64,000 bases of DNA from NCBI RefSeq assembly GCF_900070365.1, contig NZ_LN850107.1, positions 3,286,001 to 3,350,000 on the forward strand. Direction: 5' to 3'. Position 1 is the stretch's first letter, and each line of letters opens with the position of its first letter. The notes beneath the pieces are model-generated. The model was not told the origin of the DNA. It did no database searches and worked only from the letters and a program-made list of their open reading frames with translations. A program made the position numbers and the translations under genes. Below, piece by piece: positions 32,718-55,200 of the stretch. This DNA is from Alloactinosynnema sp. L-07. Its GTDB lineage: Bacteria; Actinomycetota; Actinomycetes; Mycobacteriales; Pseudonocardiaceae.

Positions 32718-32915
32718 CTAATCGACGAGACTCTTGGGGCGCAGGTCGGTCCAGTGCTCGTTGGTGTAGTCCAGGCACTCCTGCCGGGGCGCGTCGCCGA
32801 ACACCTGGGTCCAGCCCGCCGGGACGGCGAGGTAGGCGGGCCACAGCGAGTGCTGGCCCTCCTCGTTGACCAGCACCAGGTAGCGGCCGTCGGCGTCTTC
32901 GAACGGGTTGGTCAC
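32718..32915 (-). CDS. mbtH: MbtH-like protein
   Basis: A 65-residue MbtH family chaperone that binds and activates NRPS adenylation domains. The signature [19 protein letters not shown] and the conserved Trp residues (LWP, AGW, HWTDLRP) are present, and the length is standard. The GTG start (32915) begins TNPFED, the usual N-terminus. It is the last biosynthetic gene of the lanM-lanA-LAL-mbtH strand, while the NRPS it should serve begins beyond the right end of the window. Confidence 0.95.
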
Positions 32916-36069: not shown

Positions 36070-36330
36070 TCAGACGTCCTCGATGCAGCAGGTCGAGCCC
36101 ATGGGCCAACTGTAGGAGGCCACCGCGTCCGGGCCCGCGAAGATACCGTTGAGCGCGTCGACCCCGCCGGTGCCGACGGCTACGGCGATACCGGCCAGCG
36201 CGGCCGCTCTCATCCCGAAGGCGACCGCGGGTGCCTGCCATCTTCTGCCCAGGGTGCCGATTCTTGAAAATTCGACCACTTCGAGTTTTTGCGGGGTCGC
36301 CGCGATCTCGGACATGCGTTCTCCACTCAT
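36070..36330 (-). CDS. lanA: Putative class II lanthipeptide precursor (LanA)
   Basis: An 86-residue peptide directly downstream of lanM (34-base gap). The C-terminus is a short Ser/Thr/Cys-rich core, ASYSWPMGSTCCIEDV, preceded by a long leader with an Ala/Gly-rich hydrophobic stretch and a possible double-Gly site (AVAVGTGG). Ser72, Ser74, Ser79 and Thr80 could be dehydrated and Cys81/Cys82 could form thioether rings. Two starts are possible: the ATG at 36330 (AAGGA upstream) and the ATG at 36315 (GGAG 5 bases upstream), giving 86 or 81 residues. No close relative is recognised, so the precursor role is inferred from position, size and core composition. Confidence 0.75.
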   Translation of the reverse strand: MSGERMSEIAATPQKLEVVEFSRIGTLGRRWQAPAVAFGMRAAALAGIAVAVGTGGVDALNGIFAGPDAVASYSWPMGSTCCIEDV

Positions 36331-39779: not shown

Positions 39780-41273
39780 TTGGGACCAATTGCCGGGAAA
39801 TCCGGGAACCTCGCTGAACATTTCGTCCACCAGGCCGACCGCGCACCCCAGGCGGTGGCCCTGATCTGGGCCGATCAGGAGATCACCTACGGCGAACTGC
39901 ACGCGCTGGCCCGCGGTGCCCAGCGGGAGGTGGACCGGCTCGACCTTCCCGCGGACAGGCCGGTTGGCCTTGTGCTGGACAAGAATCCGCGCGCCATCGC
40001 GCTGATCCTGGCCCTGCTTGGCGCGGGCCGGGCGTTCCTGCTGCCCTCGGCCACACTCCCCCACGCGACCCTCGCCGCCCTGTTCACCGCCGCCGACTGC
40101 GCGGCCGTCCTGTCCACCAGACCTGACCAGGCGGCCGGTCTCATCGACCACGTCATCGCCGTCGAGCAGGCCACGGGCGAACTGCGCACCGTGGCGACCC
40201 CCGACTCGGTCGGCTTCATGCTCACCACGTCCGGCTCGACCGGGGTGCCGAAGATCGTCCCGCTGACCGGCGGCGCGGTGGCCGCGTTCGCCGACTGGGC
40301 GGCGGCCGCGTTCCACATCGCCCCCGGCCGCACGGTGCTCAACTACGCGCCGCTCAACTTCGACCTCTGCCTGCTCGACATCTGGACCACGCTCGGCGCG
40401 GGCGGCCGGGTCGTGCTGGTCGACCCGGCGAAAGCCACGCTGGCCCCGTACCTGGCCGACCTGCTCACCGCCCACCAGGTCGACGTGGTGCAGGCCGTCC
40501 CGATGCTCTACCAGCTCCTCGCCGAGCACGGCGGCTCCTACCGAGCCGACCAGGTGATCTTCACCGGGGACGCGCTCCCCGTGCGCTGCCTGCCGCCGCT
40601 GCGCGCGCGGTTCCCCGCCGCGCGCCTCTACAACCTCTACGGCTGCACGGAAACCAACGACAGCTTCCTGCACGAGGTCGTCGACGACACCGCGTCGACC
40701 ATCCCGATCGGCAAGCCCATCGACGGGGTGCGCACGGTGATCATCGACGCCGACGGCGCGGCGGTGACCGGGGCGGGGACCGGCGAGCTGTATGTCAGCA
40801 CACCGTTCGCCAGCCCCGGGTATCTCGACCCCGACCAGGCTCGGCTCGCGTTCGGACCGCACCCGACCGGCGCCGACGACCGCCGGTACTTCCGCTCCGG
40901 CGACATCGTCGAGCGGCACACCGACGGCACGCTGACCCTGGCAGGCCGCAAGGACTTCCACGTCAAGGTGCGCGGCGTGCAGGTCAACACCCAGCAGGTC
41001 GAGCGGGCGCTGCTGGCCCATCCGGGAGTCGCCGAGGCCGTCGTGCTCGCCGGGGGCGACCCGCTCGGCGGAACGGTGCTGCACGCGGTGGTCCGACGCC
41101 GTTCGCCGGACGGCCCGCACAGCCTCGCCGTCCGCCGGCACTGCGCGCGCCTGCTGCCCAAGGCCGCCGTGCCAGGTGTGATCCACCTGGTCGACCAGCC
41201 GCTTCCCGCCACCTCGACCGGAAAACCCGACCGAACGCGCATCAAGCGCACCTATCTGGAGGCCCGATCATGA
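39780..41273 (+). CDS. Stand-alone adenylation enzyme (NRPS A domain)
   Basis: A 497-residue AMP-forming enzyme with A3 TTSGSTGVPK, A5 LYNLYGCTETNDSF, A7 YFRSGDIVER and A10 ATSTGKPDRTRIK (catalytic Lys). It should activate an amino acid and load the carrier protein encoded next. The YGCTETNDSF segment recalls proline adenylases of pyrrole pathways. By eye the pocket reads D-L-L-Q-I-T-L-D-S, where those enzymes start D-L-L, so a proline-like or altered substrate is possible; this is low-confidence. The start is a TTG at 39780 with AGGGG upstream. Its stop overlaps the carrier ATG (ATGA). First gene of the operon. Confidence 0.88.
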   Translation: MGPIAGKSGNLAEHFVHQADRAPQAVALIWADQEITYGELHALARGAQREVDRLDLPADRPVGLVLDKNPRAIALILALLGAGRAFLLPSATLPHATLAALFTAADCAAVLSTRPDQAAGLIDHVIAVEQATGELRTVATPDSVGFMLTTSGSTGVPKIVPLTGGAVAAFADWAAAAFHIAPGRTVLNYAPLNFDLCLLDIWTTLGAGGRVVLVDPAKATLAPYLADLLTAHQVDVVQAVPMLYQLLAEHGGSYRADQVIFTGDALPVRCLPPLRARFPAARLYNLYGCTETNDSFLHEVVDDTASTIPIGKPIDGVRTVIIDADGAAVTGAGTGELYVSTPFASPGYLDPDQARLAFGPHPTGADDRRYFRSGDIVERHTDGTLTLAGRKDFHVKVRGVQVNTQQVERALLAHPGVAEAVVLAGGDPLGGTVLHAVVRRRSPDGPHSLAVRRHCARLLPKAAVPGVIHLVDQPLPATSTGKPDRTRIKRTYLEARS

Positions 41274-41533
41274 GTGACACACAGGTGATCAAGCGGTTCG
41301 TGCTCGCCGAGTTCCTGCCGGACGTGCCGGAGAGCGAACTGGCCGACGACCTCGACCTGATCGAGAACGGCGTGATCGACAGCCTCGGCCTGCTCAAGCT
41401 GCTCGCCTGGCTGGAGGACCGCTTCGCCCTGCCCGTCGACGACATCGAACTCGACCCGGACAGCCTGCGCAGTGTCACCGCGATCGGCGAGTTCGTCGCC
41501 AAGGCGCGGACGGCTCCCGCGAGCACCCGGTGA
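41270..41533 (+). CDS. Free-standing peptidyl/acyl carrier protein
   Basis: An 87-residue carrier protein. The phosphopantetheine Ser is Ser38 in LIENGVIDSLGLLKLL, within the helix II signature. It would hold the aminoacyl thioester made by the upstream A domain while partner enzymes (the dehydrogenase, cupin or transglutaminase-like protein) act. It overlaps both neighbours by 4 bases (ATGA before, GTGA after). Confidence 0.9.
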   Translation: MSDTQVIKRFVLAEFLPDVPESELADDLDLIENGVIDSLGLLKLLAWLEDRFALPVDDIELDPDSLRSVTAIGEFVAKARTAPASTR

Positions 41534-42546
41534 CCGCGCTGCTCACCAGGCTGGTCGCCAGGGACGGCCCCATCGACCGCGCCGACTGGCACGGGTTCTT
41601 CGACCGGCTGGCCGATGGCGACCTGCGCCGCGGCGAGGGCGCCGCCCTGCTCGCGTCGCTGTCCACCGCGATGCCCGACGACGACACGCTCCACGCGCTG
41701 TTCGACAGCCTCGACGAGCGGCGCGGCGACCCCGGTGTGGCTTTCCCGGACGCGGTGAACATCGTCGGGACCGGCGGCGGGCCGCGCACCTTCAACGTCT
41801 CCACGGCCGCGGCCGTCGTCGCCGCGGCGATCGGCGTGCGGGTGATCAAGACCGGGTCGCGCGCCTACACCAGCAAGTACGGCTCGTTCGACCTGCTCGA
41901 AGCCCTCGGCGTCGGGCTGACCGAGGACTTCGCGGACACCGCCGAGCGCCTCGACCGGCTGGGGGTGGCGTTCGCCGGCCAGTTCGTCTACCCGGCCGAG
42001 ATCGCCCGGCTGGCGAGCCAGATCGTCCCGCTCGACCTGCGCACGGTGGGCACGTTCGTCAACCGGGTCGGCCCGTTCCTGGCCGCGATGCCGGTCGGCG
42101 CCCAGCTCACCGGGTTCTCCGACGAGCGGATGCTGCCCGCGCTGCGGCTGCTCGCCCGCCGCGACCCGAACAAGCGGGTGTGGTTGTGCGGCAACGACTT
42201 CGGCGCCGACGAGCTGATCAGCTGCACCGACAACGTCGTGCATCCCGATGACGGCGAGACATTCACCCTGGCCGCGGGGTCGCCCGCGCCCAGCGAGGGC
42301 ACGATCGAGGACCTGCGGCCGTGGCCGAACCCGGTCGAGCAGTTCCACGCCGTGCTGGCCGGGACCGGGCCCGCGACCGCCGTGCACACCGTGTGCCTCA
42401 ACGCCGCCGCGCTTGGCGTGCTGGGCGGCCGGTTCACCGACTGGGCCGACGCGTTCGCCGCGGCCCGCGACGCCGTGCGCGGCGGCGCGGCGACCGACCT
42501 GCTGGCGCGGGTGCGCTCGACCGATCCGGCGGCCGTCCATGCCTGA
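41530..42546 (+). CDS. TrpD-like anthranilate phosphoribosyltransferase homologue
   Basis: A 338-residue protein of the TrpD fold. TrpD joins PRPP to anthranilate. The PRPP loop is recognisable (VNIVGTGGGPRTFNVSTAAA), but the usual KHGNR is KTGSR and GSAD is GSFD (KTGSRAYTSKYGSFDLLEAL). The anthranilate-binding Arg normally found before the conserved RT is absent (ASQIVPLDLRTVGTFV). These changes suggest another amine-bearing acceptor. The alignment is by eye. It overlaps the carrier gene (GTGA) and the TrpA-like gene by 8 bases. Confidence 0.82.
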   Translation: MTALLTRLVARDGPIDRADWHGFFDRLADGDLRRGEGAALLASLSTAMPDDDTLHALFDSLDERRGDPGVAFPDAVNIVGTGGGPRTFNVSTAAAVVAAAIGVRVIKTGSRAYTSKYGSFDLLEALGVGLTEDFADTAERLDRLGVAFAGQFVYPAEIARLASQIVPLDLRTVGTFVNRVGPFLAAMPVGAQLTGFSDERMLPALRLLARRDPNKRVWLCGNDFGADELISCTDNVVHPDDGETFTLAAGSPAPSEGTIEDLRPWPNPVEQFHAVLAGTGPATAVHTVCLNAAALGVLGGRFTDWADAFAAARDAVRGGAATDLLARVRSTDPAAVHA

Positions 42547-43363
42547 GAACGCCTTCTTCGCCGACCGGCGGCCGGGTGAGATCGGCCTCGCCCTGTTCCT
42601 CAACGCGGGCGATCCCCCGCTGTCCGTGCTGCCCGACCTGCTGCGCGCGCTCGACGAGTCCGAAGTGGACTGCGTGGAGCTGGCGGTGCCGTTCCCGGAC
42701 TCGATCACCGACGGGCCGGTGATCCGCCGCTCGGCCGACCGGGCCCTGGCCGACGGGACCGACCTCGCCGAGGTGCTCAAGTGCCTGGACACGGTGCGCG
42801 GCGAACTCCGGCACACCAAGATCGCGCTGCTCGCCGACTGGAGTCACACGGTCCGCCCCCTAGGGCTCGCGGAGTTCGTCGCCACGGCCGCCGACGCCGC
42901 GGTCGACGGCCTGCTGGTGCATGGGCTCCCGCCCCGCGTGCGGTGGGCCTACCGCGAGGCGGCGGCCGCGGCCGGGATGCCGATCGTGGCCACCTGCTAT
43001 CCGAAGTCGGCGCAGGCCGTGCTCGCCGAGTCGGCGGCCACCGCGTCGGCCTACCTGTACCTGGTCGCCCACTACGGGCGCACCGGCTCCGCGCCGCCGG
43101 ACGGGTTCGCCCAACTCGGCGCGGTGATCGACGACCTGCGGACCCGCACGAGCGCGCCCATCGCGGTCGGCTTCGGCGTGCGGGGACCCAGCGAGGTCGC
43201 CGCCCTCGCCCGCGCGGGAGCCGACGCCGCGGTGGTCGGCAGCGCGGCCGTCGCCGTCGTCGAGCGTGCGGCCGAGGACCGCCGCGACGTCGTCGCCGAC
43301 CTCGCCGAGTTCGTCGCCATGCTCAAGTCCATCAACCCGACAACCCCAAGGAGTGCGAAGTGA
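42539..43363 (+). CDS. TrpA-like tryptophan synthase alpha subunit homologue
   Basis: A 274-residue TIM barrel. TrpA cleaves indole-3-glycerol phosphate to indole and glyceraldehyde 3-phosphate. The catalytic Glu is kept in VDCVELAVPFPD and the second acid in ITDGPVIRRSADRAL. Later segments YLVAHYGRTGSAP and IAVGFGVRGPSEVAAL match the phosphate-binding loops loosely. Retro-aldol chemistry is therefore plausible on an indole-glycerol-phosphate analogue. Its end overlaps the ectoine-synthase-like GTG (GTGA). Confidence 0.85.
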   Translation: MPENAFFADRRPGEIGLALFLNAGDPPLSVLPDLLRALDESEVDCVELAVPFPDSITDGPVIRRSADRALADGTDLAEVLKCLDTVRGELRHTKIALLADWSHTVRPLGLAEFVATAADAAVDGLLVHGLPPRVRWAYREAAAAAGMPIVATCYPKSAQAVLAESAATASAYLYLVAHYGRTGSAPPDGFAQLGAVIDDLRTRTSAPIAVGFGVRGPSEVAALARAGADAAVVGSAAVAVVERAAEDRRDVVADLAEFVAMLKSINPTTPRSAK

Positions 43364-43734
43364 TCGTCCGCAAACTGTCCGAAGTGGCCACTGTCGAATG
43401 GGGCAACGGCCTGAGCCGCCGGTTCCTGCTGGAATCCGACGGGATGGGCTACACCGTCACCGACACGGTCGTCCGCGCGGGCACCAAGTCCCGGCTGGAG
43501 TACCGCCGCCACCTGGAGGCCTGCTATTGCATCGAGGGCGCGGGCGAGGTCGTCGACGCCGACGGCAACTCCCACCCCATAGAGCCGGGCACGTTATACG
43601 CCCTCGACCAACACGACGCCCACTTCCTCGTCGCCGCGCCGGACTCGGACTTGCGCCTGGTGTGCGTGTTCAGCCCGGCGCTCAAGGGCGACGAGATCCA
43701 CCGGCTCGACTCGGCAGAGTTCTCCCACTACTGA
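43360..43734 (+). CDS. Ectoine-synthase-like cupin (EctC family)
   Basis: A 124-residue cupin very like EctC: MIVRKLSEV start (GTG 43360), LEYRRHLEACYCIEGAGEV and GTLYALDQHDAHFLVAA, with the metal-binding Glu, Tyr and His in place. EctC closes N-acetyl-diaminobutyrate to the cyclic amidine ectoine, and it has been reported to cyclise glutamine to an aminopyrroline carboxylate. No ectA or ectB is present, so ectoine itself is unlikely; a cyclodehydration step in the cluster pathway is inferred. It has AAGGAG upstream and an in-frame TTA Leu codon at 43594-43596. Confidence 0.88.
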   Translation: MIVRKLSEVATVEWGNGLSRRFLLESDGMGYTVTDTVVRAGTKSRLEYRRHLEACYCIEGAGEVVDADGNSHPIEPGTLYALDQHDAHFLVAAPDSDLRLVCVFSPALKGDEIHRLDSAEFSHY

Positions 43735-43748
43735 GCGGGCTGACCAAC

Positions 43749-44894
43749 GTGATCGAGTGGACTCAGGAGCAGCGGGACCTGCGGGCCGGGATCGACCAGT
43801 GGTGCGCGGGGCTGTCCGCCGACCACGTCGAACTCGACGCGGCGGCGGAGTTCCCCTGGCACAAGTGGAAAATGGTCCAGGAGAGCGGTATCGCGGGCCT
43901 GCCGTTCGACGAGGAGTACGACGGCCTCGGCCGTGACCTGCTGACCACGCTCTACGTCCTGGAAGGGCTGGGCCGCGGCTGCCGCGACAGCGGGCTGAGC
44001 TTCTCGCTGTCGACCCACATGGTCAGCGTCGGCGTCCCGCTGCAGCGGTTCGGCGCCGCTGCGCTCAAACGCGCTCACCTGCCGAGAATCGTCTCCGGCG
44101 ACGCCATCGGCGCGCACGCGATCACCGAGCCGGACGGCGGGTCCGACGCACTGCGGATGCGGACGAAGGCCACCAGGGACGGCGCGGACTTCGTGCTCGA
44201 CGGGAGCAAGACCTTCGTGAGCAACGGTCCGGTCGCGGGCCTGTTCATGATCTACGCCCGCACCCATCCCAAGGGCGGACCCCTTGGCATCACGGCGTTC
44301 CTGGTCGAGCGGGACACGCCGGGGCTGCACGTGGGCAACTCCATCGCCAAGATGGGTCTGCGCACTTCGCCGCTGTGTGAGGTGTTCCTCGACGGGTGCC
44401 GGGTCCCGGCGGCCAACGTGGTCGGCAAGGTGGGAACCGGCTTCCTGGTGCTGGACTACGTGATGAAGTGGGAGATCCTCTGCTCCTTCGCCATCACCCT
44501 CGGCGAGATGCGCCACCGGCTCGACCAGTGCGTCGACTACGCGCGCGAGCGGGTCCAGTTCGGTCAGCCCATCGGCTCCTACCAGGCGATCTCCCACAAG
44601 ATCGCCGACATGAAGGTCGGCGTGGAGACCACCGCGAAGTGGATCTACGACACCGCTGCCAAGTTCGCGGCGGGCGAGAGCATCACCACGGACCTGGCCA
44701 TCACCAAACTGGTCGCCAGCGAGCACAACCTGGCCTCCGCGCTCGCGGCGGTGCAGATCCACGGCGGCAACGGCTACATGGCCGAGTACGGCGTCGAGAA
44801 GGACCTGCGCAACGCGGTGGCGGGGACGATCTACTCGGGCACCTCGGAGATCCAGCGCAACCGCGTCGCGGCGATGCTGGGGGTGACCAAGTGA
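43749..44894 (+). CDS. Acyl-CoA-dehydrogenase-like flavoprotein (probable carrier-bound substrate oxidase)
   Basis: A 381-residue FAD-dependent ACAD fold with IGAHAITEPDGGSDAL, KTFVSNGPVAGLFMIYA and a C-terminal TIYSGTSEIQRNRVA. The usual catalytic Glu of IYEGT is Ser here. A Glu in the earlier helix (VMKWEILCSFAI) aligns by eye with the base position used by isovaleryl-CoA dehydrogenase. In pyrrole pathways such enzymes oxidise prolyl-S-carrier thioesters. With the A domain and carrier nearby, oxidation of a carrier-bound amino acid is the best inference. Its end overlaps the transglutaminase-like gene (GTGA). Confidence 0.87.
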   Translation: MIEWTQEQRDLRAGIDQWCAGLSADHVELDAAAEFPWHKWKMVQESGIAGLPFDEEYDGLGRDLLTTLYVLEGLGRGCRDSGLSFSLSTHMVSVGVPLQRFGAAALKRAHLPRIVSGDAIGAHAITEPDGGSDALRMRTKATRDGADFVLDGSKTFVSNGPVAGLFMIYARTHPKGGPLGITAFLVERDTPGLHVGNSIAKMGLRTSPLCEVFLDGCRVPAANVVGKVGTGFLVLDYVMKWEILCSFAITLGEMRHRLDQCVDYARERVQFGQPIGSYQAISHKIADMKVGVETTAKWIYDTAAKFAAGESITTDLAITKLVASEHNLASALAAVQIHGGNGYMAEYGVEKDLRNAVAGTIYSGTSEIQRNRVAAMLGVTK

Positions 44895-45559
44895 TCGCGG
44901 AACTGGCGGCCACCGAGTTCCTCGACCACGAGTCCGACGAGGTGCGGGCCCTGGTCGACAAGGTGTCCGATCCGTCGATGTCGACCGTCGCGCGGGCGGT
45001 CGCGCTCTACTACGCCGTCCGCGACCGGGTGCGCTACGAGGTCTACGGCGCCGACCTGTCCAGGACCGGGCTGCGCGCGAGCGCGGTGCTGCGCACGGGA
45101 TCGGGCATGTGCCTGCACAAGTCGGTGGTGTACGCGGCGGCGCTGCGCGCGGTCGGTGTGCCGAGCAGGCTGCTGCTCACCGACGTGCGCAACCACCTTG
45201 CCTCCGACCGACTCCGCGAGCTCGTCGGCGGCGACATGTTCACCTATCACTGCCTTGTCTCGCTGAATCTGGACGGCCGCTGGCTCAAGGCGACCCCGGT
45301 GTTCAACAAGACGCTCTGTCGGCTCTACCGCATGGCGCCGCTGGAGTTCGACGGCACCGCGGACAGCGTCTACCACCCGTTCGACACCCAGGGCCGACAG
45401 CACATGGAGTTCGTCCGCGTCCACGGCGAGTTCGCTGACCTGCCCTACGAAAGCGTCATCGCCGGTCTGCGCGCCGCGCACCCGAAGCTGTTCGACGAGC
45501 CGGACCGGTTCACCGCCGGGTCGCTCGTCGCGGACACCTACTCGGCCACCACCCACTGA
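44891..45559 (+). CDS. Transglutaminase-like protein
   Basis: A 222-residue transglutaminase-like fold. The nucleophile region [20 protein letters not shown] (Cys) and the His in [18 protein letters not shown] are present. The third-residue Asp usually after the Trp strand is not obvious ([10 protein letters not shown]). Relatives in antibiotic pathways (AdmF of andrimid) form amide bonds from carrier-bound acyl groups, so amide formation or offloading from the cluster carrier protein is a reasonable inference. A protease-like role cannot be excluded. GTG start overlapping the previous TGA. Confidence 0.8.
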
Positions 45560-45578
45560 CCCACGATTGGGGAACACC

Positions 45579-46943
45579 GTGTACGAACAGATCAAGTACC
45601 AGCTCGGCGAGGACCAGATCCCGCGCACCTGGTACAACATCGCCGCCGACCTGCCCGGCCTGGAACCGCTGCTGCACCCGGGAACCGGCGCGCCGATCAC
45701 CGTCGAGGACCTGCTGCCGATCATGCCGGAGGCGCTGGCGGTCCAGGAGCTGTCGCGGGAGCGGGAGATCGAGATCCCGGAGCCGGTCCGCCAGATCTAC
45801 GGCCAGTACCGCCCGGCCCCGCTGTTCCGGGCCCGCAGGCTGGAGCGCGCGCTGGGCACCCCGGCGCGGATCTACTACAAGTACGAGGGTGTCAGCCCGG
45901 CGGGCAGCCACAAGCCGAACACGGCTATCGCGCAGGCGTATTACAACAAGGAAGCCGGGATCACCAGGCTGGCCACCGAGACCGGCGCGGGCCAGTGGGG
46001 CTCGTCGCTGGCGCTGGCGGGCGCGCTGTTCGACATCGAAGTCCAGGTGTTCATGGTCAAGGTGAGCTACGGCCAGAAGCCGTACCGGCGGCTGCTGATG
46101 GAGACCTACGGCGCGCGCTGCACGCCCAGTCCCAGCCAGGAGACCGAGGTCGGCCGCAACATCCTCGCCGCCGACCCCGACTGCCCCGGCAGCCTCGGCA
46201 TCGCCACCTCCGAGGCGCTGGAACTCGTGGTCAACGACCCGACGACCAACTACGCGGGCGGCAGCGTGCTCAACCACGTGCTGCTCCACCAGAGCGTGAT
46301 CGGCCAGGAGGCGATCGCCCAGTTCGCGCTCGCCGAGGACTACCCGGACATCGTGATCGGCTGCACCGGCGGCGGCAGCAACTTCGGCGGCCTGGCCTTC
46401 CCGTTCCTCGGCGAGAAGCTGCGCGGCGGCCGGGACGTGCGGGTCATCGCCGCCGAGCCCGCCGCCTGCCCCACGATCACCCAGGGCAAGCTGGCCTACG
46501 ACTTCGGCGACACCGCCGGGCTCACCCCGCTGCTGAAGATGCACACCCTCGGCCACGGCTTCATCCCGCCGCCGGTGCACGCGGGCGGGCTGCGCTACCA
46601 CGGCATGTCGCCGCTGGTCAGCGCCGTCGTCGACCGCGGCCTGGTCGAGGCGCGGGCCGAGGCGCAGACGCGCTGCTTCGAGGCGGGCCTGACCTTCGCC
46701 CGGTCCGAGGGCATCGTGCCCGCGCCGGAGTCGACCCACGCCATCTCGGTGGCCATCAGCGAGGCGATGCGCTGCCGCGACGAGGGCAAGGCCGAGACGA
46801 TCGTGTTCGGCCTGTCCGGGCACGGGCATTTCGACCTCGGCTCCTACGGGGCGTACCTCGCGGGCGAGCTGCGCGACGAGGACTACGACCCGGCGATGGC
46901 CGACAAGGCCCTCGCCGAGCTGCCGACCGTCCCCGATGCCTGA
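45579..46943 (+). CDS. TrpB2-type tryptophan synthase beta homologue
   Basis: A 454-residue PLP enzyme of the TrpB-like (TrpB2) class. The PLP Lys is in [18 protein letters not shown] and the phosphate-binding loop is [16 protein letters not shown]. TrpB couples indole with serine. TrpB2 forms are longer at the N-terminus and often do not pair with TrpA. The GTG at 45579 has GGGGA 5 bases upstream and is preferred to a TTG at 45567. It would attach a serine-derived side chain to the indole-like product (inference). Confidence 0.88.
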
Positions 46944-46961
46944 CCGAACGGCGGGTCTCCG

Positions 46962-47702
46962 GTGCTGGTGAAGATCTGCGGCGCCGCCGGCGTCGCCGAC
47001 ATCGAGGTGCTCGCCGCGGCGGGCGTCGACTTCATCGGCCTGTGGCACGGGGTGCGCGGCGGCCACGCCGAGCTGAGCGCGGACGCGCTCGGCTCGCTGG
47101 CCGCCGCGGCCACCCTCGCCGGACCGGCGCCCGTGCTGGTCACCCTGGACTCCGGGGTGGCCGCGGTGCGGGCGGCGGTCGAGCGGTCCGGGGTGGGCTG
47201 GGTGCAGCTGCACGGGTACCAGCCGCCCGCGATGGTGCGGGCCATGGCCGCCGAGGTCGACGTGATCAAGGTGCTGCACGTGCGCGGCGGCGAGTGCGTC
47301 GAGCGCGGACTGATCCGGGCCTACGAACGGGCGGGCGTGCGGATGTTCCTGGTCGACACCCTCGCCGCGGACGGGCGGATCGGCAGCACCGCGGTGCGGG
47401 TCGACCCGTCCGCCGTCGCCGAGGTCCTGGCGGCCACCACGGTGCCGGTCATGCTCGCGGGCGGGCTCACCGCCGACAACGCCGACCAGTTCCGGTCGCT
47501 GCTGACCCATCCGCGGCTGGCCGGGATCGACGTGGACACCGGGGCCCGCGACGACACGGGCCGGATCGACCCGGCCAAGGTGGCCGCGATCAAGCGCGGC
47601 TGGACAGCTCAGGAGTTTTCAAAGATCGGGTCGAACCCAAGCGTTGATCGGAACACGCGCTCTGGCGACGCCGAGGTTGTCACGGATGAGGAGGTGCCAT
47701 GA
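46962..47702 (+). CDS. TrpF-like phosphoribosylanthranilate isomerase homologue
   Basis: A 246-residue (beta/alpha)8 protein. TrpF carries out the Amadori rearrangement of phosphoribosylanthranilate. The general-base Cys is kept in LVKICGAAGV, the acid Asp in MFLVDTLAADG, and VQLHGYQP and VMLAGGLTADNADQF match. The GFVF..SPR segment is replaced by GLWHGVRGGHAEL, and VDxSSGVE by IDVDTGARDD, so the substrate pocket differs. About 33 extra residues follow the barrel. It overlaps the TrpC-like ATG (ATGA). Confidence 0.84.
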   Translation: MLVKICGAAGVADIEVLAAAGVDFIGLWHGVRGGHAELSADALGSLAAAATLAGPAPVLVTLDSGVAAVRAAVERSGVGWVQLHGYQPPAMVRAMAAEVDVIKVLHVRGGECVERGLIRAYERAGVRMFLVDTLAADGRIGSTAVRVDPSAVAEVLAATTVPVMLAGGLTADNADQFRSLLTHPRLAGIDVDTGARDDTGRIDPAKVAAIKRGWTAQEFSKIGSNPSVDRNTRSGDAEVVTDEEVP

Positions 47703-48394
47703 CCCGGTTCACCGAGGCGCTGGCGGCGGGCAGTCCGCCGGTGATCGCCGAGATCAAGCCCCGCACCGCCGACGGGGAGGACCTCCTGCGCGGCCGCACC
47801 CCCACCGCGATCGCCGCGGCCTACGCCGACGCGGGCGCGGCCTGCCTGTCGGTGGTGACCGGCCGCTGGTTCGGCGGCACCGTCGACCTGCTGCGCGAGG
47901 TCACCGCCGCGAGCCCGCTTCCGGTGCTGCAGAAGGATTTCATCACCCGAGACGCCCACATCGAGACCGCGGCGGACTGCGGGGCCGCCGCGGTCCTGCT
48001 GACGGTGAAGCTGCTGACGGCCACCTCGATGCGACGGCTGGTGGACGCGGCCATCGGGCACGGGATCACGCCGTTCGTGGAGGTGACAGACGAGGCCGAG
48101 ATCGCCATCGTGCCCCGAGCCGCCGAGTGCGTGATCGCGGTGAACAACAAGGACATCAGCACCCGCGAACGCACCCCCGCCGACCTCCGCCGCGGCGCGG
48201 ACCTACTGGCGACGGTCCAGGCGACCGGGACGCCGTACCCGGTCAGCGCCAGCGGGATCGAGCACCCCGCACAGGCGGCCTCGCTGCTCGCGGCGGGCTA
48301 CCGGGGCCTGCTGGTCGGCACCGGCCTGCTGCGCGCGACCGACCCAGCCGAGTGGTTCGGCACCCTCGCCACGCATCTGAACGAGGCCGGGTAA
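47699..48394 (+). CDS. TrpC-like indole-3-glycerol-phosphate synthase homologue
   Basis: A 231-residue barrel. TrpC closes the indole ring with loss of the carboxylate. Catalytic residues kept by eye: Glu/Lys in VIAEIKPR, Lys in VLQKDFITRD, Glu in PFVEVTDEAE, and Asn in AVNNKDIST. Changed: SESGI is SASGI (a catalytic Glu becomes Ala), and the phosphate-side SPS motif after AEIKR is missing (KPRTADGED). It is somewhat shorter than typical TrpC at the N-terminus. A modified decarboxylative cyclisation is inferred. TAATG overlap with the UbiD gene. Confidence 0.84.
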   Translation: MTRFTEALAAGSPPVIAEIKPRTADGEDLLRGRTPTAIAAAYADAGAACLSVVTGRWFGGTVDLLREVTAASPLPVLQKDFITRDAHIETAADCGAAAVLLTVKLLTATSMRRLVDAAIGHGITPFVEVTDEAEIAIVPRAAECVIAVNNKDISTRERTPADLRRGADLLATVQATGTPYPVSASGIEHPAQAASLLAAGYRGLLVGTGLLRATDPAEWFGTLATHLNEAG

Positions 48395-49881
48395 TGACCG
48401 ACATCCTCCGTGAGCCAGGCCAGAAGACCGACCCGCGCCCCCTCGACCAACCCATCCCCGGCGTCGCGGTGCCTGCGGCGGATTCGGCGCGAACGGACGC
48501 CGCGCCGTCCCCGCGCAACACCGTGGATCCGGTGCGACTGGGCGCCGCGCTGTCGCTGCGCGATGCGGTGGATCCGGTGGCGATGGATGTCGTGTTGCCC
48601 GCCGACGAGATCGCGCGGCACTTCGCCGAGCACTTCGCCGGGATTCCGGCCACGCCGCTCACCAGGGACGAACCGGCGGTGACCTATCAGGTTCCCGGCT
48701 CGGCCATGCCGGTGCTGCTGGGCGCGTACGGCGCGGAGCGGCGGGTGCGCGACTGGTTGCCCGGTCTTCCCGACCGCACCGACCGCGCCGCCGCACACCG
48801 ACTCGCCGCGGCGGCTATCGCGCCGGTGACCGTCGCCGATCCGGTGTGCGCGCAGGTCGTTTCCATGCCGGGCGACCTCACCGCGCTTCCCGCTCTCACC
48901 GCCACGCCGCGCGACGCGGGGCCCTACTTGACGACGGGCATCGTGATGGCGGGGGATGTCGCGATGTCGGTGCACCGGATGCTCGTGCTCGACGCCACCC
49001 GGTTGGCGATCTGGATGGTTCCCGGGCGCGCGCTGCGGCGGCTGCACGAGTCCACTGGCAGGCTGGCCGTGTCGGTGAACATCGGCGCCCCGCCCGCCGC
49101 GATGGTCGCCTCGGCTCTCGGCACGGCGTTCCTGCCCGCCGGGGTCGACAAGCTCTCGATGGCCGGTGCGCTCGCGGGCGCGCCGGCGCGGATCGCCACT
49201 GGCGTCAGTCAGGCCGTTCCCGTGCTGGCCGACTCGGAGATCGTGATCGAGGGATACCTGGACGACACCGTCGCCGACGAGACCCTCGACGGACCGCCCG
49301 GCGTGTCCTTGCCCGAGTTCCTCGGCTACGACGGTGAAGCGCGGACCGGCCTTCCGGTCATCACCGTGACCGCCGTGACCACCCGACGGGACCCCCTCTT
49401 CCACGCGGTGATCGGCCCCGGCCGGGAGCAGTCGGTGATCCTCGGCCTGGCGGGGGCGGTGTCGGTCGCGCTGTCAGACACCGGGCCGCACGGTCACCTC
49501 CTGCACGACCTGCACTTCAGCGCGGCGGGCGGCGGCATGCTGCTGCTGGTCGCCGCGGTGCGCAAGACCAGCGCCGACGACGATGGCGCGCTGGCCGACC
49601 TCGCCGAGCGGATCCTCCGGCAGCACTTCTTCGTCAAGCTGGTCGTGTTCACCGACCCCGACGTCGACATCCGCGCCCCCGAGGACGTGCTCTGGGCGAT
49701 GACCACCCGGACCAATCTCGGCACCGACACCGGGACCATCTCCGGGTTCGGCCCACTGCCAGTGGACCCTTCACACAGCGCGACGTGGAGGGAAGGCAGG
49801 TCCGACCGCTCGTTTGTCGACGCGACCACACCATTCTCGTTGCGGCACAACGTCTTCCGCAGCTTCGGCGGGCAACCATGA
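48394..49881 (+). CDS. UbiD-family prenylated-FMN decarboxylase
   Basis: A 495-residue enzyme of the UbiD family, which (de)carboxylates aromatic or alpha,beta-unsaturated acids with prenylated FMN. Motifs: SVHRMLVLDATRLAIWMV, LAVSVNIGAPPAAMVASAL, and PGVSLPEFLGYDG with the conserved Glu, followed by VTTRRDPLFHAVIG. The N-terminal 60 residues are Pro/Asp-rich and extra. The partner UbiX is encoded directly downstream with an ATGA overlap. It probably removes a carboxyl group from a pathway intermediate. Confidence 0.9.
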   Translation: MTDILREPGQKTDPRPLDQPIPGVAVPAADSARTDAAPSPRNTVDPVRLGAALSLRDAVDPVAMDVVLPADEIARHFAEHFAGIPATPLTRDEPAVTYQVPGSAMPVLLGAYGAERRVRDWLPGLPDRTDRAAAHRLAAAAIAPVTVADPVCAQVVSMPGDLTALPALTATPRDAGPYLTTGIVMAGDVAMSVHRMLVLDATRLAIWMVPGRALRRLHESTGRLAVSVNIGAPPAAMVASALGTAFLPAGVDKLSMAGALAGAPARIATGVSQAVPVLADSEIVIEGYLDDTVADETLDGPPGVSLPEFLGYDGEARTGLPVITVTAVTTRRDPLFHAVIGPGREQSVILGLAGAVSVALSDTGPHGHLLHDLHFSAAGGGMLLLVAAVRKTSADDDGALADLAERILRQHFFVKLVVFTDPDVDIRAPEDVLWAMTTRTNLGTDTGTISGFGPLPVDPSHSATWREGRSDRSFVDATTPFSLRHNVFRSFGGQP

Positions 49882-50453
49882 GGCTGGTCGTGGGGATCAC
49901 CGGGGCGACCGGCGCGGTCATCGGCGTGCGCATCCTCACCGCGCTGCGCGACCTCGGCGTCGAGACCCACCTGGTGCTGAGCCGGTGGGGCCGGGCGACC
50001 CTGGAGATGGAGACCGACCTGACCGCCGCCGATGTGCAGGCGCTGGCCGACCACAGCCACGGCCCGGGCGACCACTCCGCCCCGATCGCCAGCGGGTCGT
50101 TCCGCACCGACGGGATGATCATCGCCCCGTGCAGCATGAAGACACTCGCGGCGATCCGCACCGGCTACGGCGAGGGCCTCATCCCCCGCGCCGCCGATGT
50201 CACCCTCAAGGAGCGCAGGCGGTTGGTGCTCGTGCCCCGCGAGCTGCCGCTGTCGGAGATCCACCTGGAGAACATGCTCGCGCTGACCCGGATGGGCGCG
50301 GTGATGGCCGCGCCCATGCCCGCCTTCTACAACCGCCCGCAGACCATCGACGACCTAGTCACCCACATCTGCGCACGCGTGCTAGACCAGTTCGACTTGG
50401 ACCTCCCCAACGCGACCCGCTGGACCGGCCCACCGCGCCGCGCGCACGCCTGA
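49878..50453 (+). CDS. ubiX: Flavin prenyltransferase UbiX
   Basis: UbiX makes prenylated FMN, the cofactor for UbiD. The 191-residue protein has the flavodoxin-like start RLVVGITGATGAVIGVRIL, the FMN/prenyl site IIAPCSMKTLAAIRTGYGEG, and RRLVLVPRELPLSEIHLENM. The ATG at 49878 overlaps the UbiD TGA. It is the last gene of the operon and is followed by palindrome copy 3. Confidence 0.94.
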   Translation: MRLVVGITGATGAVIGVRILTALRDLGVETHLVLSRWGRATLEMETDLTAADVQALADHSHGPGDHSAPIASGSFRTDGMIIAPCSMKTLAAIRTGYGEGLIPRAADVTLKERRRLVLVPRELPLSEIHLENMLALTRMGAVMAAPMPAFYNRPQTIDDLVTHICARVLDQFDLDLPNATRWTGPPRRAHA

Positions 50454-50669: not shown

Positions 50670-52103
50670 TCACCTCACCGCCGCCGGTTCGGACTTGGGG
50701 CTAGCGGTGCGAGCGGCCATGGTCAAAGCGATCCCGACGACGAGAACGCCGATCGGCACCAGATAAGCGAACCGCACCGCGTCGGTCAGTACCTGCGGCG
50801 GCAAGTCCGACAGATCCCGGCCCGCCGAAGCGACCTTGGCCTGAAGCAGCGCCCCGACAACAGCTGAGCCGATCGCGCTGCCGGTCAACCTGCTCAGACT
50901 CAGCAACCCTGACGCCGCGCCGGAGTATTCCGGTTCGATGTCGCGCATAGCGATCGCCCCACCAGGGGAGAAGATCACCCCCATGCCGATGCCGAGCACG
51001 ATGAGCGCGGGCAGCAGCGCCGACCAGGTGGTGTCCGTCCGCGTCGCCAGCGCCAGCATCCCGACGCCAGCCGCGGCCAGCACCAGGCCGCCGACCAGCA
51101 CCCACTTGCCGCCGAAGCGGTCGGTCAGCCGCCCGGAGATCGGCGAGAAGAAGATCGAGACGAACGGCGCCGCGGCCACCGCCAGACCCGAGGCCAGCGC
51201 GCTCATGCCCGCGCCGCTCTGCAGGTGCAGGAACACCAGCAGGAAGACGCAGCCGATCCCACAGGCGATCGTCGCCGTGACCGCCGACATCAGCACGAAG
51301 TTGCGGTCACGCACCACGGCGAAGGGCAGCAGCGGGTCACGGTGCTGCCGTCCACGCTCGACCACGACGAAACCCACCAGCGCGGCCAGTCCCGCCACCA
51401 GCAGCATCGGCGCGGTGACCGGTCCCCACACGCGACCCCAGTGGTGCGGCTCGCCTTCGAGTAGCGCATAGGTGATCAGGAACAGACCGGCGGTGACCAG
51501 GCCGATGCCGACCAGGTCCAGCTTGCGGGTGGCCGATGCCTTGACATCCGGCACCACCAGCAGTGCCAGCACGAACCCGGCCACCCCGATGGGCACGTTG
51601 ACGAAGAACACCCACCGCCAGTCGAACACCGACACCAGCAGTCCACCGACGGTCGGCGCCGCCGCGACCGAGACCCCCGCGAACGACCCCCACACGCCGA
51701 TCGCCGCGCCCCGCCGGTCAGCGGGGAAGATCTTGGTGATGATCGACAGCGTCTGCGGCGACATCAGCGCGCCCCCGACCGCCTGTGCCACCCGCGCCGC
51801 GATGAGCTGGCCAGGACTCATCGCCAGTCCACACAGGACAGATGCGGCGGTGAAAACGCCCAGCCCGATCAGGTACATGCGCTTCGGCGAGAACAAGTCG
51901 CCGAACCGGGCACCGACCATGGTCAGCGCGGTGAGCACCAGGATGTAGACGTTGACCACCCAGAGCAGCTGTTCGAGGGTGGCGCCGAGGTCGTCCCCGA
52001 TCGCCGGGAGGGCGACGTTGACCACGGTGGAGTTGAGCAGGCCGAGGGACTGTCCGACACAGAGCGCGAACAGCACGGTCCAGGGATTGCGGGTCGTCGT
52101 CAT
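50670..52103 (-). CDS. MFS transporter, DHA2 (EmrB/QacA) type
   Basis: A 477-residue integral membrane protein with about 14 helices. Motif A-like GARFGDLFSPKRMYLIG and the motif C region (WRWVFFVNVPIGVAGFVLAL) fit the DHA2 drug:H+ antiporters. It follows the NRPS on the same strand through two micro-ORFs with ATGA overlaps and is the likely exporter or self-resistance pump for the cluster product. The ATG at 52103 has GGAGGA upstream. Confidence 0.93.
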   Translation of the reverse strand: MTTTRNPWTVLFALCVGQSLGLLNSTVVNVALPAIGDDLGATLEQLLWVVNVYILVLTALTMVGARFGDLFSPKRMYLIGLGVFTAASVLCGLAMSPGQLIAARVAQAVGGALMSPQTLSIITKIFPADRRGAAIGVWGSFAGVSVAAAPTVGGLLVSVFDWRWVFFVNVPIGVAGFVLALLVVPDVKASATRKLDLVGIGLVTAGLFLITYALLEGEPHHWGRVWGPVTAPMLLVAGLAALVGFVVVERGRQHRDPLLPFAVVRDRNFVLMSAVTATIACGIGCVFLLVFLHLQSGAGMSALASGLAVAAAPFVSIFFSPISGRLTDRFGGKWVLVGGLVLAAAGVGMLALATRTDTTWSALLPALIVLGIGMGVIFSPGGAIAMRDIEPEYSGAASGLLSLSRLTGSAIGSAVVGALLQAKVASAGRDLSDLPPQVLTDAVRFAYLVPIGVLVVGIALTMAARTASPKSEPAAVR

Positions 52104-52200: not shown

Positions 52201-52239
52201 CGCCATACCGGACAAGCACCTGGCTTCGCGGGTCGTCAT
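52180..52239 (-). CDS. Micro-ORF 1 after the NRPS gene (19 residues)
   Basis: ATG (52239) overlaps the NRPS TGA as ATGA, and its own TGA overlaps the ATG of micro-ORF 2. It begins MTTREARC and ends MAADGGRR; the start resembles the MFS N-terminus (MTTTRNP). Probably a by-product of the duplication that keeps the NRPS-to-MFS translational chain unbroken. Confidence 0.4.
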
Positions 52240-55200
52240 GGCTGTCCTTCGTCGGTCGCGGGGTCGAGGCGGGCGGCGATGGCCTTGCCGATCTCGGCCA
52301 GGGGGCGCGGCTGGGTCATCGCGCCATGGGTGCAGTCGATCGGTAGTTCTTCCACGTGCCCGGCCACGTACGGCCGCCACGCCTGCGCGGTCAGACCCGG
52401 TGCCCGGCAGGCGGTCGCGGCGAAGAACAGCACGTCGCCGTCGAAGGTCGCCGGGGTGTGCCGGGCACTGGCCTCGACGGTCGCGGCGAACACGCCTGCC
52501 ACGGCCGCGATGCCGGACTCGCCCAGTTCTGCCAGTGGGCTGTCCGCCGCGCGCAGCTCGGCCAACGCGTCGGCCACCGTCAGCGGGCCCTCGGCCTGGG
52601 GGAAGCCGAGTGAGTCGAGCACGCCGCACAGTGCCGCGGACACGTCAACAGGCGGGTCCGGGTAGTCCGTGCCACGCGCGGAGGCCGGGTAGGAGTCCAT
52701 CAGGCCGAGGAAGGCCACCTCCTCCCCCGCGGACCGCAGCACCGAAGCCATCTCGTGCGCCACCAGGCCACCGAACGACCAGCCAAGCAGGTGGTACGGG
52801 CCCGTCGGCCGCACCCGACGGATCGCGGCGACATAGTCCCGAGCCATGTCGGCCACGTCCGCCGTCACCGGCTCGGTCAGACCGCGGGCCTGCAAGCCGT
52901 ACACCGGTCGGCGCGGGTCGAGGTGGCGCAGCAGGCCCGAGTACACCCAGCTGATGCCCGCGGCCGGGTGCACGCAGAACAGCGGCGGCAGGTCCCCGCC
53001 CGCGCGCAGTGGCAGGAGCACGTCGAGTGCGTCCCCGCCGGTCGGGGCGCCCTCGGCGATCCTGGAGGCGAGCCCGGCGACGGTGGGCGTCTCGAACAGC
53101 GCCCGCAGGCCCAGCCGCACCCCCAGCACCGCGTGGACCCGGCTGATCACCCTGGTGGTGAGCAGCGAATGCCCGCCGAGGTCGAAGAACCCGTCGTCCA
53201 ACCCGACCTCCGGCACGCCCAGCACGTCGGCGAACACCTCGCACAGGGCGCGCTCGACCGCCGTGCTCGGCGCGCGGCCGGTCGTGGTCGGCGCGTCCGG
53301 CGCCGGGAGGGCCGCGCGGTCGACCTTTCCGTTGGGGGTCAACGGAATCTCGTCCACCTCGACGAACGCCGACGGCACCATGGCCTCGGGCAGTGCGGCG
53401 GCGACGTGGGCGGCCAGGCTGTCGACCGGACCGACGACATAGGCGACGATCCGCTGGTCGCCCGGCCGGTCCTCGCGCACGATCACCGTGGCGCGGCGAA
53501 CGTCCTCGTGCGCGACCAGCCGGGACTCGATCTCGCCGAGTTCGATCCGGAACCCGCGGACCTTCACCTGGTGGTCGACGCGCCCGACGAACACCATTGT
53601 CCCGTCCGCGCGCCTGCGGACCAGGTCGCCGGTGCGGTAGAGGCGGGCGCCGGGGACGAACGGGTTGGCCACGAACCGTTCCGCGGTCAGCGCGGGCCGG
53701 TTCAGGTAGCCCCGCGCCAGCCCGGCGCCGCCGATGTACAGCTCGCCGACCACCTGGTCGGGCACGGGCATCAACCCCGCGTCGAGCACGTACAGCCGGA
53801 CATGGTCGAACGGCGTGCCGATGGGGACCGGCCCGGCGGGCAGTGGGTCGCCCGGCTCGACCCGGTACTCCATACAGCTCACCGTGATCTCCGTCGGACC
53901 GTAGGAGTTGATCACGGTGACGTCCGAGTGCCGGGCCCGCCACGGCTCGATCTGGGCGCCGTGCAGGGCTTCGCCCGCGACGATGAGCGTGCCGCTGGGG
54001 GCGAACTCGTCGGGCAGCGCGGACAGCAGCGGCAGGTGACTCGGCGTGCCTTTGAGCATCGTGACGGGCGCGCGCCGCAGTGATTCGACCGTGCCGCCGG
54101 TGTCGTCCAACGCGGCCAGGTGCACGCACCCGCCGGTGATCAGCGGCCCCCACAGCACGGTCACGGTGAGGTCGAACGCCACCGGCGAGTGCACCAGCGC
54201 CACCCCCGCCGCGTCCGGGTAGCCGACCCCGGCCCAGCCAAGGTACGCCGCCAGCGCCCGGTGCTCGATGACGACGCCCTTCGGCCGTCCGGTCGACCCG
54301 GAGGTGTAGATCACGTACGCCGGATCCGTGCCGCGCCTGCCGGGCACGAGCGGATCCTGTGGCGAGTGCCGCGCGATGTCGTCGGCGTCGGGCACGAACA
54401 CAGCGAAGCCCGCGAAGTCGGCGGCGAGCGCCGCGGTGGTCACCACCAGCGTGGGCTTGGCGTCGGCCAGCATGTATCCGACGCGCGCCGTCGGGTAGTC
54501 CGGGTCGATCGGCAGGTACGCCGCGCCCGACTTGAGCACCGCGAGCAGCGTCACGACCAGGTCGGCCGAGCGAGGCAGCACGACCGCGACGATCCGCTCC
54601 GGCCCGGCCCCCAACTCGGCGAGCCTGCCCGCCAGCCGGTTCGCCCGCTCGTTGAGGTCCCGATAGGACAGTTCGACGCCGTCGACGCGGACGGCAGGGC
54701 GGTTCGGAGTGCGTGCGGCCTGGCCTGCGACAAGATCGGGCAGTGTGGTCTCCGCCGCGGGCGTACCGGCGCGTTCCACCAGCCGAGCGCGTTCGTGCGG
54801 CGTCAGGATGTCCAACGCGCCGACGCGCTCGTCCGGCGCGGCGACGGCGGCGTCGAGCAGGCACACCAATCGGTCGGCCAGCGTCCGCGCGGTGGCGCGG
54901 TCGAACAGGTCGACGTCGTAGGTCAGCGACCCGTCGATGCCCAAATCGGGCCGTTCGGCGAGCATGAAGCTCAGGTCGTACTTGGCCGTCTCCACCGGGA
55001 TCTCCTGCTCGGCCACGTCGAGGCCCGGCAGCTCGACCGCGCCGGACTCGGTGTTCTGCAAGGCGAGCAGCACCTGGAACAGCGGGTGGTGCGACAGCGA
55101 CCGGGTGGGGCTGACCGCCTCCACGATCCGCTCGAACGGCACGTCCTGGTGGGCGTAGGCGGTCAGGTCGACCTCGCGGACCCGGTCCAGCAACTCCCGG

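Follow-up and report, generated by a model that had tools for sequence, protein, structure and literature searches.

A carrier-linked, tryptophan-like operon of Alloactinosynnema sp. L-07 as a candidate amino-acid-making variant of the kosinostatin pyrrolopyrrole pathway

In Alloactinosynnema sp. L-07, a stretch of 64,000 nucleotides (contig NZ_LN850107.1, positions 3,286,001 to 3,350,000 of the forward strand, referred to as the window) carries a 12-gene operon in which homologues of the tryptophan enzymes TrpD, TrpF, TrpC, TrpA and TrpB stand among genes for a stand-alone adenylation enzyme (A), a peptidyl carrier protein (PCP), an EctC-like cyclase, an acyl-CoA dehydrogenase-type (ACAD) enzyme, a transglutaminase-like (TG) protein and UbiD/UbiX. 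On balance, we favor the reading that this operon encodes a variant of the kosinostatin/quinocycline pyrrolopyrrole pathway that makes an amino acid, starting from glutamine and ending in beta-(pyrrolopyrrolyl)alanine. The chemistry is inferred throughout, most of all the origin from glutamine and the steps from ring release to use by a nonribosomal peptide synthetase (NRPS). A fuller version, which we put forward tentatively and at slightly less than an even chance, is that a Trp pathway tethered to the carrier turns glutamine, ribose and serine into the full tryptophan isostere beta-(1,6-dihydropyrrolo[2,3-b]pyrrolyl)alanine, and that A-PCP-EctC-ACAD is a reused source of 5-aminopyrrole, coupled directly by TrpB2 in operons free of TrpD to give aminopyrrolyl-alanine (predicted [M+H]+ 170.0924).

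Results

Organization of the operon

The operon lies on the + strand between 39780 or 39855 and 50453, and each of its 12 genes is present:

39780..41273, +, stand-alone adenylation enzyme (A; AMP-binding), TTG start at 39780 or 39855, code D L L A I T L D S K
41270..41533, +, peptidyl carrier protein (PCP; PF00550, PP-binding), Ser in DSL
41530..42546, +, TrpD-like phosphoribosyltransferase whose acceptor site is altered (Glycos_transf_3)
42539..43363, +, TrpA-like aldolase (PF00290), E47 and D58 (E49/D60) kept
43360..43734, +, EctC-like cyclase (PF06339), metal site intact, Thr in place of the carboxylate Asn
43719..44894, +, ACAD-type carrier-bound dehydrogenase of the prolyl-PCP class (acyl-CoA dehydrogenase), start 43719 or 43749
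44891..45559, +, transglutaminase-like (TG) Cys/His enzyme (PF01841, Transglut_core), putatively freeing the ring from its carrier
45567..46943, +, TrpB2-type pyridoxal phosphate (PLP) enzyme (PALP; TIGR01415, 619.6 bits), proposed to couple Ser
46962..47702, +, TrpF-like isomerase (PF00697, PRAI)
47699..48394, +, TrpC-like ring-closing enzyme (PF00218, IGPS), R182 to K and E210 to A
48391..49881, +, UbiD-family decarboxylase (PF01977, 143 bits), start 48391 or 48394
49878..50453, +, UbiX-family flavin prenyltransferase (TIGR00421, 249 bits against a cut-off of 109; Flavoprotein, 144 bits)

The initial annotation had listed TrpD/F/C/A/B homologues without TrpE or TrpG, and the profile families of the operon proteins bear this out, none of them being TrpE or TrpG; its A, carrier, ACAD-like, EctC-like, transglutaminase-like and UbiD/UbiX genes are likewise recovered by profile matches, and its count of 11 tight junctions is exact (-4, -4, -8, -4, +14, -4, +7, +18, -4, -1 and -4 bases, in order; 11 of 11 overlapping or with gaps under 20). 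The gene order is seen again in relatives and is therefore above chance. The TrpD-like protein (127.8 bits against 199) and the best models for TrpF (68.5 against 215) and TrpC (139.4 against 284) do not reach the curated NCBIfam cut-offs, whereas the TrpA-like protein exceeds its own (TIGR00262, 154 against 102) and the TrpB homologue is of the TrpB2 type (619.6 against 519). The EctC-like protein scores 130 bits with Ectoine_synth (PF06339, cut-off 27) and 141.7 with NF009806 (cut-off 128).

Relation to kosinostatin-type clusters

The absence of any described pathway, which had been supposed at first, does not hold for the ring-building half, since this corresponds to the pyrrolopyrrole module of the kosinostatin type, kosinostatin being the antibiotic quinocycline B. 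Work by Ma and colleagues in 2013 is said to have described the kosinostatin amidine as built by a process like tryptophan synthesis, with a discrete A enzyme and PCP reportedly lying beside TrpD/F/C/A-like genes. The same trait, a discrete A and PCP beside such genes and no TrpE in the operon, is present here. In the predicted functions given in Table 5 of PMC7918784, kstB has nicotinic acid loaded and converted to pyrrole, and kstC has pyrrole and phosphoribosyl pyrophosphate (PRPP) converted to pyrrolopyrrole. Our operon resembles the kstB/kstC module, as described there, in carrier loading followed by the reaction of a pyrrole with PRPP to give a pyrrolopyrrole, but it differs in the addition of TrpB2, UbiX and UbiD (outside types I and III, which are defined below, UbiD occurs in 3 of 28 loci), in adjoining an NRPS and a LanM lanthipeptide synthetase, and in the substrate proposed here, glutamine.

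Nocardiopsis alkaliphila is named as holding an almost complete kosinostatin cluster (PMC7918784), and our locus from N. alkaliphila YIM 80379 (L040) reads A-PCP-TrpD-TrpA-EctC-ACAD-TG-TrpF-TrpC; its TrpD-like protein falls inside the 35-row clade described below (support 100), where it groups with type I in a set of 10 rows (94, not starred). Comparison of the KS-alpha/CLF (ketosynthase/chain length factor) of the type II polyketide synthase (PKS) in L107 with the genes called in the window and in the 20 kb that follow it (L126) gave no match. The ring-building core (A, PCP, TrpD, TrpA, EctC, ACAD, TrpF, TrpC) is known from kosinostatin-type clusters and the pathway is not categorically new; the apparent novelty, shared by the window and three relatives, lies in the ending with TG-like, UbiD/UbiX and TrpB2 enzymes, beside an NRPS (3 of 4) and LanM (3 of 4). 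Among the CC-licensed papers listed by literature searches we noticed no account of TrpD/F/C/A joined with TrpB2 and a carrier, and none of the TrpB2 ending or of a glutamine origin.

A putative Trp-like pathway with an altered first enzyme

Conservation was examined over a family of 35 loci with related TrpD-like proteins (see below). The TrpD-like alignment has 36 rows, 35 of them readable and the remaining one a fragment of L045. The PRPP and magnesium residues G80-G83, N89, S91, K107, D227 and E228 are invariant in the 35 rows, whereas the anthranilate site is replaced in all 35 (H107 by T in 27 and S in 8, N109 by S in 35, H154 by P in 35, R164 by I in 17, V in 12, L in 5 and A in 1) and no row reverts to the letter of three canonical references; the residue numbering and the anthranilate-contact roles are those we take to apply. 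Variants of N138 and R193 of the Mycobacterium tuberculosis enzyme occur, by their entry titles, among the solved anthranilate phosphoribosyltransferase (AnPRT) entries. Loss of the anthranilate contacts points to an acceptor that probably lacks an ortho-carboxylate and may stay bound to the carrier. The idea that an aromatic amino acid replaces anthranilate therefore needs changing.

The predicted AlphaFold2 model of the TrpD-like protein has the AnPRT fold (pLDDT 88, TM 0.82 to an M. tuberculosis AnPRT entry), and a quick maximum-likelihood tree, in which the composition of some rows is odd and L078 sits on a long branch, separates the 35 TrpD-like rows from 20 canonical TrpD rows by one split with support 100. 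The canonical TrpD of the same genome is at 666,678 (371 bits). TrpE-type matches in the 7.4 Mb genome are found only at 4,022,402, where ordinary TrpC, TrpB and TrpA homologues adjoin it (L114), and at 1,314,442, TrpG not having been searched for.

The other Trp-like enzymes retain their catalytic residues. The TrpC-like proteins, numbered by alignment, keep E51, K53, K110 and E159 in 33 of 33, N180 in 32 and S211 in 31, with R182 replaced by K and E210 by A in all 33; E49 and D60 are kept in 30 of 30 TrpA-like proteins, C7 in 32 of 33 TrpF-like proteins (one gap) and D126 in 33 of 33, and the PLP lysine in 8 of 8 TrpB2 proteins. The order of phosphoribosylation, Amadori shift, ring closure and serine coupling, as first proposed, fits these residues. 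In comparison with the canonical TrpD-F-C-A-B pathway, the operon keeps the folds, the PRPP and catalytic residues and the order of steps, but it has no TrpE/G, has lost the anthranilate-site residues, has TrpB2 in place of TrpB and belongs to a family in which a carrier gene is present in 35 of 35 loci.

Enzymes predicted to act on the carrier

The A domains share the code D..(A/G).T.DSK in 45 of 45 (31 and 14 further), with D235, T301, D330, S331 and K517 all kept. Asp235 is the residue that we take to hold the alpha-amine, and its conservation makes a carrier-bound alpha-amino acid, as had been suggested, the likely start. Among single-stretch matches in the PDB the best for the A enzyme is L-proline--[prolyl-carrier protein] ligase 6o6e (177.5 bits), and by family profile Txo2 (276.9) and 6o6e (275.4) are tied. 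The proline code of PltF is DLLYLALVCK, from which the code here differs by the polar T, D and S. The PCP serine is conserved in 36 of 36.

In 46 EctC-like proteins the metal residues E57, Y84 and H92, together with the substrate residue Y52 and with F106, are kept in 46 of 46, and W21, S23, R25 and T40 are kept in the 45 that are readable there. N38 is replaced in all 45 readable rows (T in 31, A in 11, C in 3). In Paenibacillus lautus EctC (PlEctC), N38 contacts the substrate carboxylate (PMC6344544), and its loss would fit a carrier thioester substrate, among other readings. EctC of Halomonas elongata has been reported in print to convert glutamine to 5-amino-3,4-dihydropyrrole-2-carboxylate (ADPC) as a side reaction of very low efficiency. 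The EctC-like protein thus shares with EctC the fold family, the metal site and the substrate residues other than N38, but differs in the replaced N38, a three-residue insertion and an operon without ectA/ectB, neither of which is among the families of the operon genes; ectoine synthesis was rejected for this last reason. The genome has three EctC-like genes (window, L013 and L115), with no canonical-score match among those listed.

The best NCBIfam models for the ACAD enzyme are RedW (363.5 against a cut-off of 650) and PigA (354.7 against 500), both below the cut-off, and its best PDB match is 4irn, a prolyl-ACP dehydrogenase (288 bits). Judged by these matches, it may work like a prolyl-carrier dehydrogenase, though it is below the curated membership scores. 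The stand-alone A enzyme, the PCP and the prolyl-carrier-class ACAD resemble the pyrrolyl-carrier starter units PltF/PltL/PltE, RedM/O/W and AnaB-D, to which the EctC-like cyclase is an addition. Conversion of proline to pyrrole-2-carboxylate alone was rejected, since it yields no exocyclic amine for TrpD. Finally, in 12 TG-like proteins the Cys and His are kept in 12 of 12; the fold neighbours of the AlphaFold2 model (pLDDT 94) are cysteine proteases, transglutaminases and arylamine acyltransferases, geldanamycin amide synthase among them, which would fit hydrolysis and acyl transfer alike.

A separable A-PCP-EctC-ACAD module

The third EctC-like gene of the same genome lies in an A-PCP-EctC-ACAD-TG-TrpB2-EamA-AMDase operon (L115, 4694-11652) without TrpD/F/C/A. 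With its TG as query, matches were found in 20 of 100 relatives, and of the 20 loci examined 14 have A-PCP-EctC-ACAD without a TrpD of the family, or 15 including L115, 11 of these 15 with TrpB2. Variants occur, with TG on the opposite strand in L149, a different order in L146 and ordinary trp genes near L154; the other six TG-matched loci (L150, L151, L155-L158) are without A-PCP-EctC-ACAD. All three genomes with a type III cluster (G005, G006 and G015), whose TrpD loci have no such unit, carry A-PCP-EctC-ACAD elsewhere (L145, L143 and L142). Because the module is found without TrpD, and elsewhere in type III genomes, it seems to have its own product, on which TrpD-F-C-A would act.

Operons of the L115 type (L115, L139-L145) are present in eight genomes of the genus, possibly for an exported aminopyrrolyl amino acid, and to our knowledge no product of an A-PCP-EctC-ACAD-TG-TrpB2-EamA-AMDase operon has been described.

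Proposed route

Glutamine, whether free or in the form of Gln-S-PCP, would be cyclised by the EctC-like enzyme to ADPC, a cyclic amidine, with the A enzyme loading the PCP, and the ACAD would aromatise the ADPC unit by removal of two hydrogens to give 5-aminopyrrole-2-carboxyl-S-PCP. TrpD would then place phosphoribosyl from PRPP onto the exocyclic amine, TrpF would perform the Amadori shift, TrpC would close the ring onto the free carbon beside the amine with loss of H+ rather than CO2, giving a pyrrolo[2,3-b]pyrrole, and TrpA would remove glyceraldehyde-3-phosphate. The transglutaminase-like enzyme could free the acid for decarboxylation by UbiD with prenyl-FMN from UbiX, and TrpB2 could couple serine, yielding beta-(pyrrolopyrrolyl)alanine (predicted formula C9H11N3O2 and [M+H]+ 194.0924), which the adjacent NRPS may take up, perhaps twice. 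TrpF needs the riboside to sit on an exocyclic NH, TrpC needs a nucleophilic carbon beside that NH, and 5-aminopyrrole-2-carboxyl-PCP would supply both; having no ortho-carboxylate, it also fits the lost TrpD residues, and UbiD/UbiX and TG fit removal of the tethering carboxyl. The bicyclic amidine that would result is the quinocycline ring system.

Family of clusters and distribution

TrpD-like relatives are present in 10 of 100 related genomes, at 13 places with at least 50% identity over most of the length, besides a short piece in G090 (59% over 68 residues) that is outside these 13. In a phylum sample, whose first pass scored 7 candidates per listed genome, the family was found in 1 of 296 genomes, the window's own, and in another genus of the same class in 16 of 295. 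Among the best 80 of 571 relatives in named records the first 19 are family members (46-55% identity, followed by a drop to 30%). Four of 38 plasmid records were examined for family loci; viral contigs and a single-sequence scan of genome contigs gave no relatives. The 35 loci are the window, L013-L024, L027-L045 without L030 (a repeat of L015), L107, L108, L118 and L119, L038 and L118 being near-copies. They hold PCP in 35, TrpF and TrpC in 33 each, EctC-like in 31, A, TrpA and ACAD in 30 each, TG in 11, UbiD in 10, TrpB2 in 7 and UbiX in 4, absence meaning that none was seen within the retrieved stretch, mostly about 10 kb per side; the A gene of L043 (under 40% identity) was found by tblastn.

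Type I, with the full set, comprises the window, L018, L019 and L021, the last of these without EctC. Type IIa has the core with some or all of a BioF-like enzyme, a FabF-like ketosynthase (KS), MaoC and a SARP regulator, and type IIb has the core, mostly with TG, and type II PKS genes in L029, L034, L036 and L107 and in part in L031. Type III is PCP-TrpD-TrpB2-TrpF-TrpC-UbiD (L020, L022, L024).

Several loci are of interest in their own right. The type IIa clusters (L013 and others) place the BioF-like oxoamine synthase, the FabF-like KS and MaoC beside the core, possibly to act on a pyrrolopyrrole carrier unit, a layout that resembles bipyrrole building in prodiginines. A core set in the proteobacterium Azospirillum griseum (L042) hints at transfer between phyla, and another lies on pCLA1 of Streptomyces clavuligerus (L108), adjoining genes with similarity to A domains (27-31%). 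Streptomyces sp. ST2-7A, S. spiroverticillatus and Couchioplanes caeruleus (L029, L034 and L036), which combine a type II PKS with the core, are candidate quinocycline-like producers; UbiD is also present in L029 and L036. DEAD/DEAH helicase and SWIM zinc-finger genes adjoin quinocycline-like clusters in L107, where they are annotated, and as homologues in L031, L039 and L045, and could possibly give self-resistance to a DNA-binding product.

Surroundings of the operon

Genes on the - strand that flank the operon in the window include:

32718..32915, -, MbtH-like protein (PF03621), in 3 of 4 type I clusters
33044..35812, -, LuxR-family (LAL) regulator (PF00196), in 4 of 4 type I clusters
36070..36315, -, LanA-like precursor of 81 aa with ...STCC... 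end, between regulator and LanM; same place in L019 and L021, 44-48% identity over 50-57 residues
36365..39373, -, LanM lanthipeptide synthetase (TIGR03897, 646 bits against 304)
50670..52103, -, major facilitator superfamily (MFS) transporter (PF07690), in 3 of 4 type I clusters
52236..64000, -, four-module NRPS, frame extending beyond the window end (4505 codons), codes DVALIGVVVK and DVALVGVVVK in two modules

With about 59 kb examined per relative, the four type I neighbourhoods have a LuxR-type regulator and MocR in 4 each and MbtH, NRPS, MFS, LanM and the LanA-like gene in 3 each. In three of the four, LanM and a LanA-like precursor with (S/T)TCC are placed divergently beside the operon; the LanM motif is CCG in the window and CHG in L019 and L021. 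Of the four A domains of the window NRPS, two have the near-identical codes DVALIGVVVK and DVALVGVVVK, a pair that is near-identical again in the other two NRPS systems, and these first two are candidates for loading the new residue; use by the NRPS, as proposed at the outset, is plausible. The code of the last module is alike in 2 of 3 systems (DLTGIASVSK, DLTAIASVSK) and the remaining codes differ.

Discussion

The A-code positions were set by hand against GrsA numbering as we take it to be, and this is one of a number of points that weigh against a glutamine-derived, NRPS-bound amino acid. One of the four type I clusters (L021, genome G009) has no EctC-like gene, the sole Ectoine_synth match of that genome (185 bits) lying in the band taken for canonical EctC, and its operon is accompanied by LanM without an NRPS. 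Type III clusters have no TrpA, only PCP, TrpD and EctC were seen in 21 kb in L039 and L045, and the presumed third catalytic residue of the TG-like enzymes is Thr in 12 of 12. The glutamine reaction of EctC is reversible and favours the glutamine side, as described in print. The origin proposed in print for the kosinostatin pyrrole, moreover, is nicotinic acid and not glutamine (PMC7918784, PMC5321127); PMC5321127 repeats the origin from nicotinic acid and ribose, and the consulted portion of PMC8698034 adds nothing further on the origin of the ring.

It is on these published predictions for kstB and kstC (PMC7918784) that an alternative with the same ending can be built, in which nicotinic acid serves as the precursor on the carrier and is contracted to a pyrrole, as proposed for kosinostatin. 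We consider it unlikely, as kstB7, the proposed deformylation gene, is missing from the second producer's cluster as described in PMC7918784, no pyridine-contracting enzyme is evident to us in the shared A-PCP-EctC-ACAD unit and the role of EctC would be left unexplained. The preserved Asp235, moreover, if it is the alpha-amine residue as we assume, would be odd in 45 of 45 A domains for an aryl acid. The version first proposed, with a carrier unit making an anthranilate-like ortho-carboxylate acid and TrpC closing the ring with loss of CO2, agrees with the catalytic residues kept in TrpC and TrpA; we find it improbable in view of the anthranilate-site residues replaced in every readable TrpD-like row, the R182 to K and E210 to A changes in 33 of 33 TrpC-like proteins and the lack of an obvious operon gene for addition of an ortho-amine.

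The pyrrolopyrrole could also be made while TrpB2 acts otherwise, or the amino acid could enter a LanM peptide or leave the cell free rather than form part of an NRPS product. LanM and a LanA-like gene stand beside the operon in as many type I clusters as the NRPS does (3 of 4 each), and in the type 0 operon an EamA transporter is found in their place; the two NRPS A domains with near-identical codes in all three NRPS systems argue against it, weakly, since the last-module code is also alike in 2 of 3, and we regard this course as quite unlikely. That these are spare tryptophan genes supplying a tryptophan-using NRPS is hardly credible. Tryptophan supply genes do occur inside other biosynthetic clusters, but here the operon has no TrpE/TrpG, the TrpD-like proteins form a divergent clade that has lost the anthranilate residues, trp genes are present elsewhere in the genome, and A-PCP-EctC-ACAD would be left without a role; the idea was rejected. 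We retain the amino-acid-making pyrrolopyrrole variant as our preferred reading.

The role of solitary EctC-type proteins has been stated to be unresolved (PMC5924519). If the preferred reading is true, one class of EctC-like proteins, encoded apart from ect operons, would have a function, and the question of the solitary EctC-type proteins would become testable for the EctC-like group described here. It would also challenge the derivation of the bicyclic amidine of kosinostatin from nicotinic acid, which would have to be revised, and natural peptides may contain an unrecognised tryptophan isostere. Bacteria would then be using the tryptophan enzymes as a toolkit for making a different heterocycle, and the acceptor site of the first enzyme would be where they have changed most clearly.

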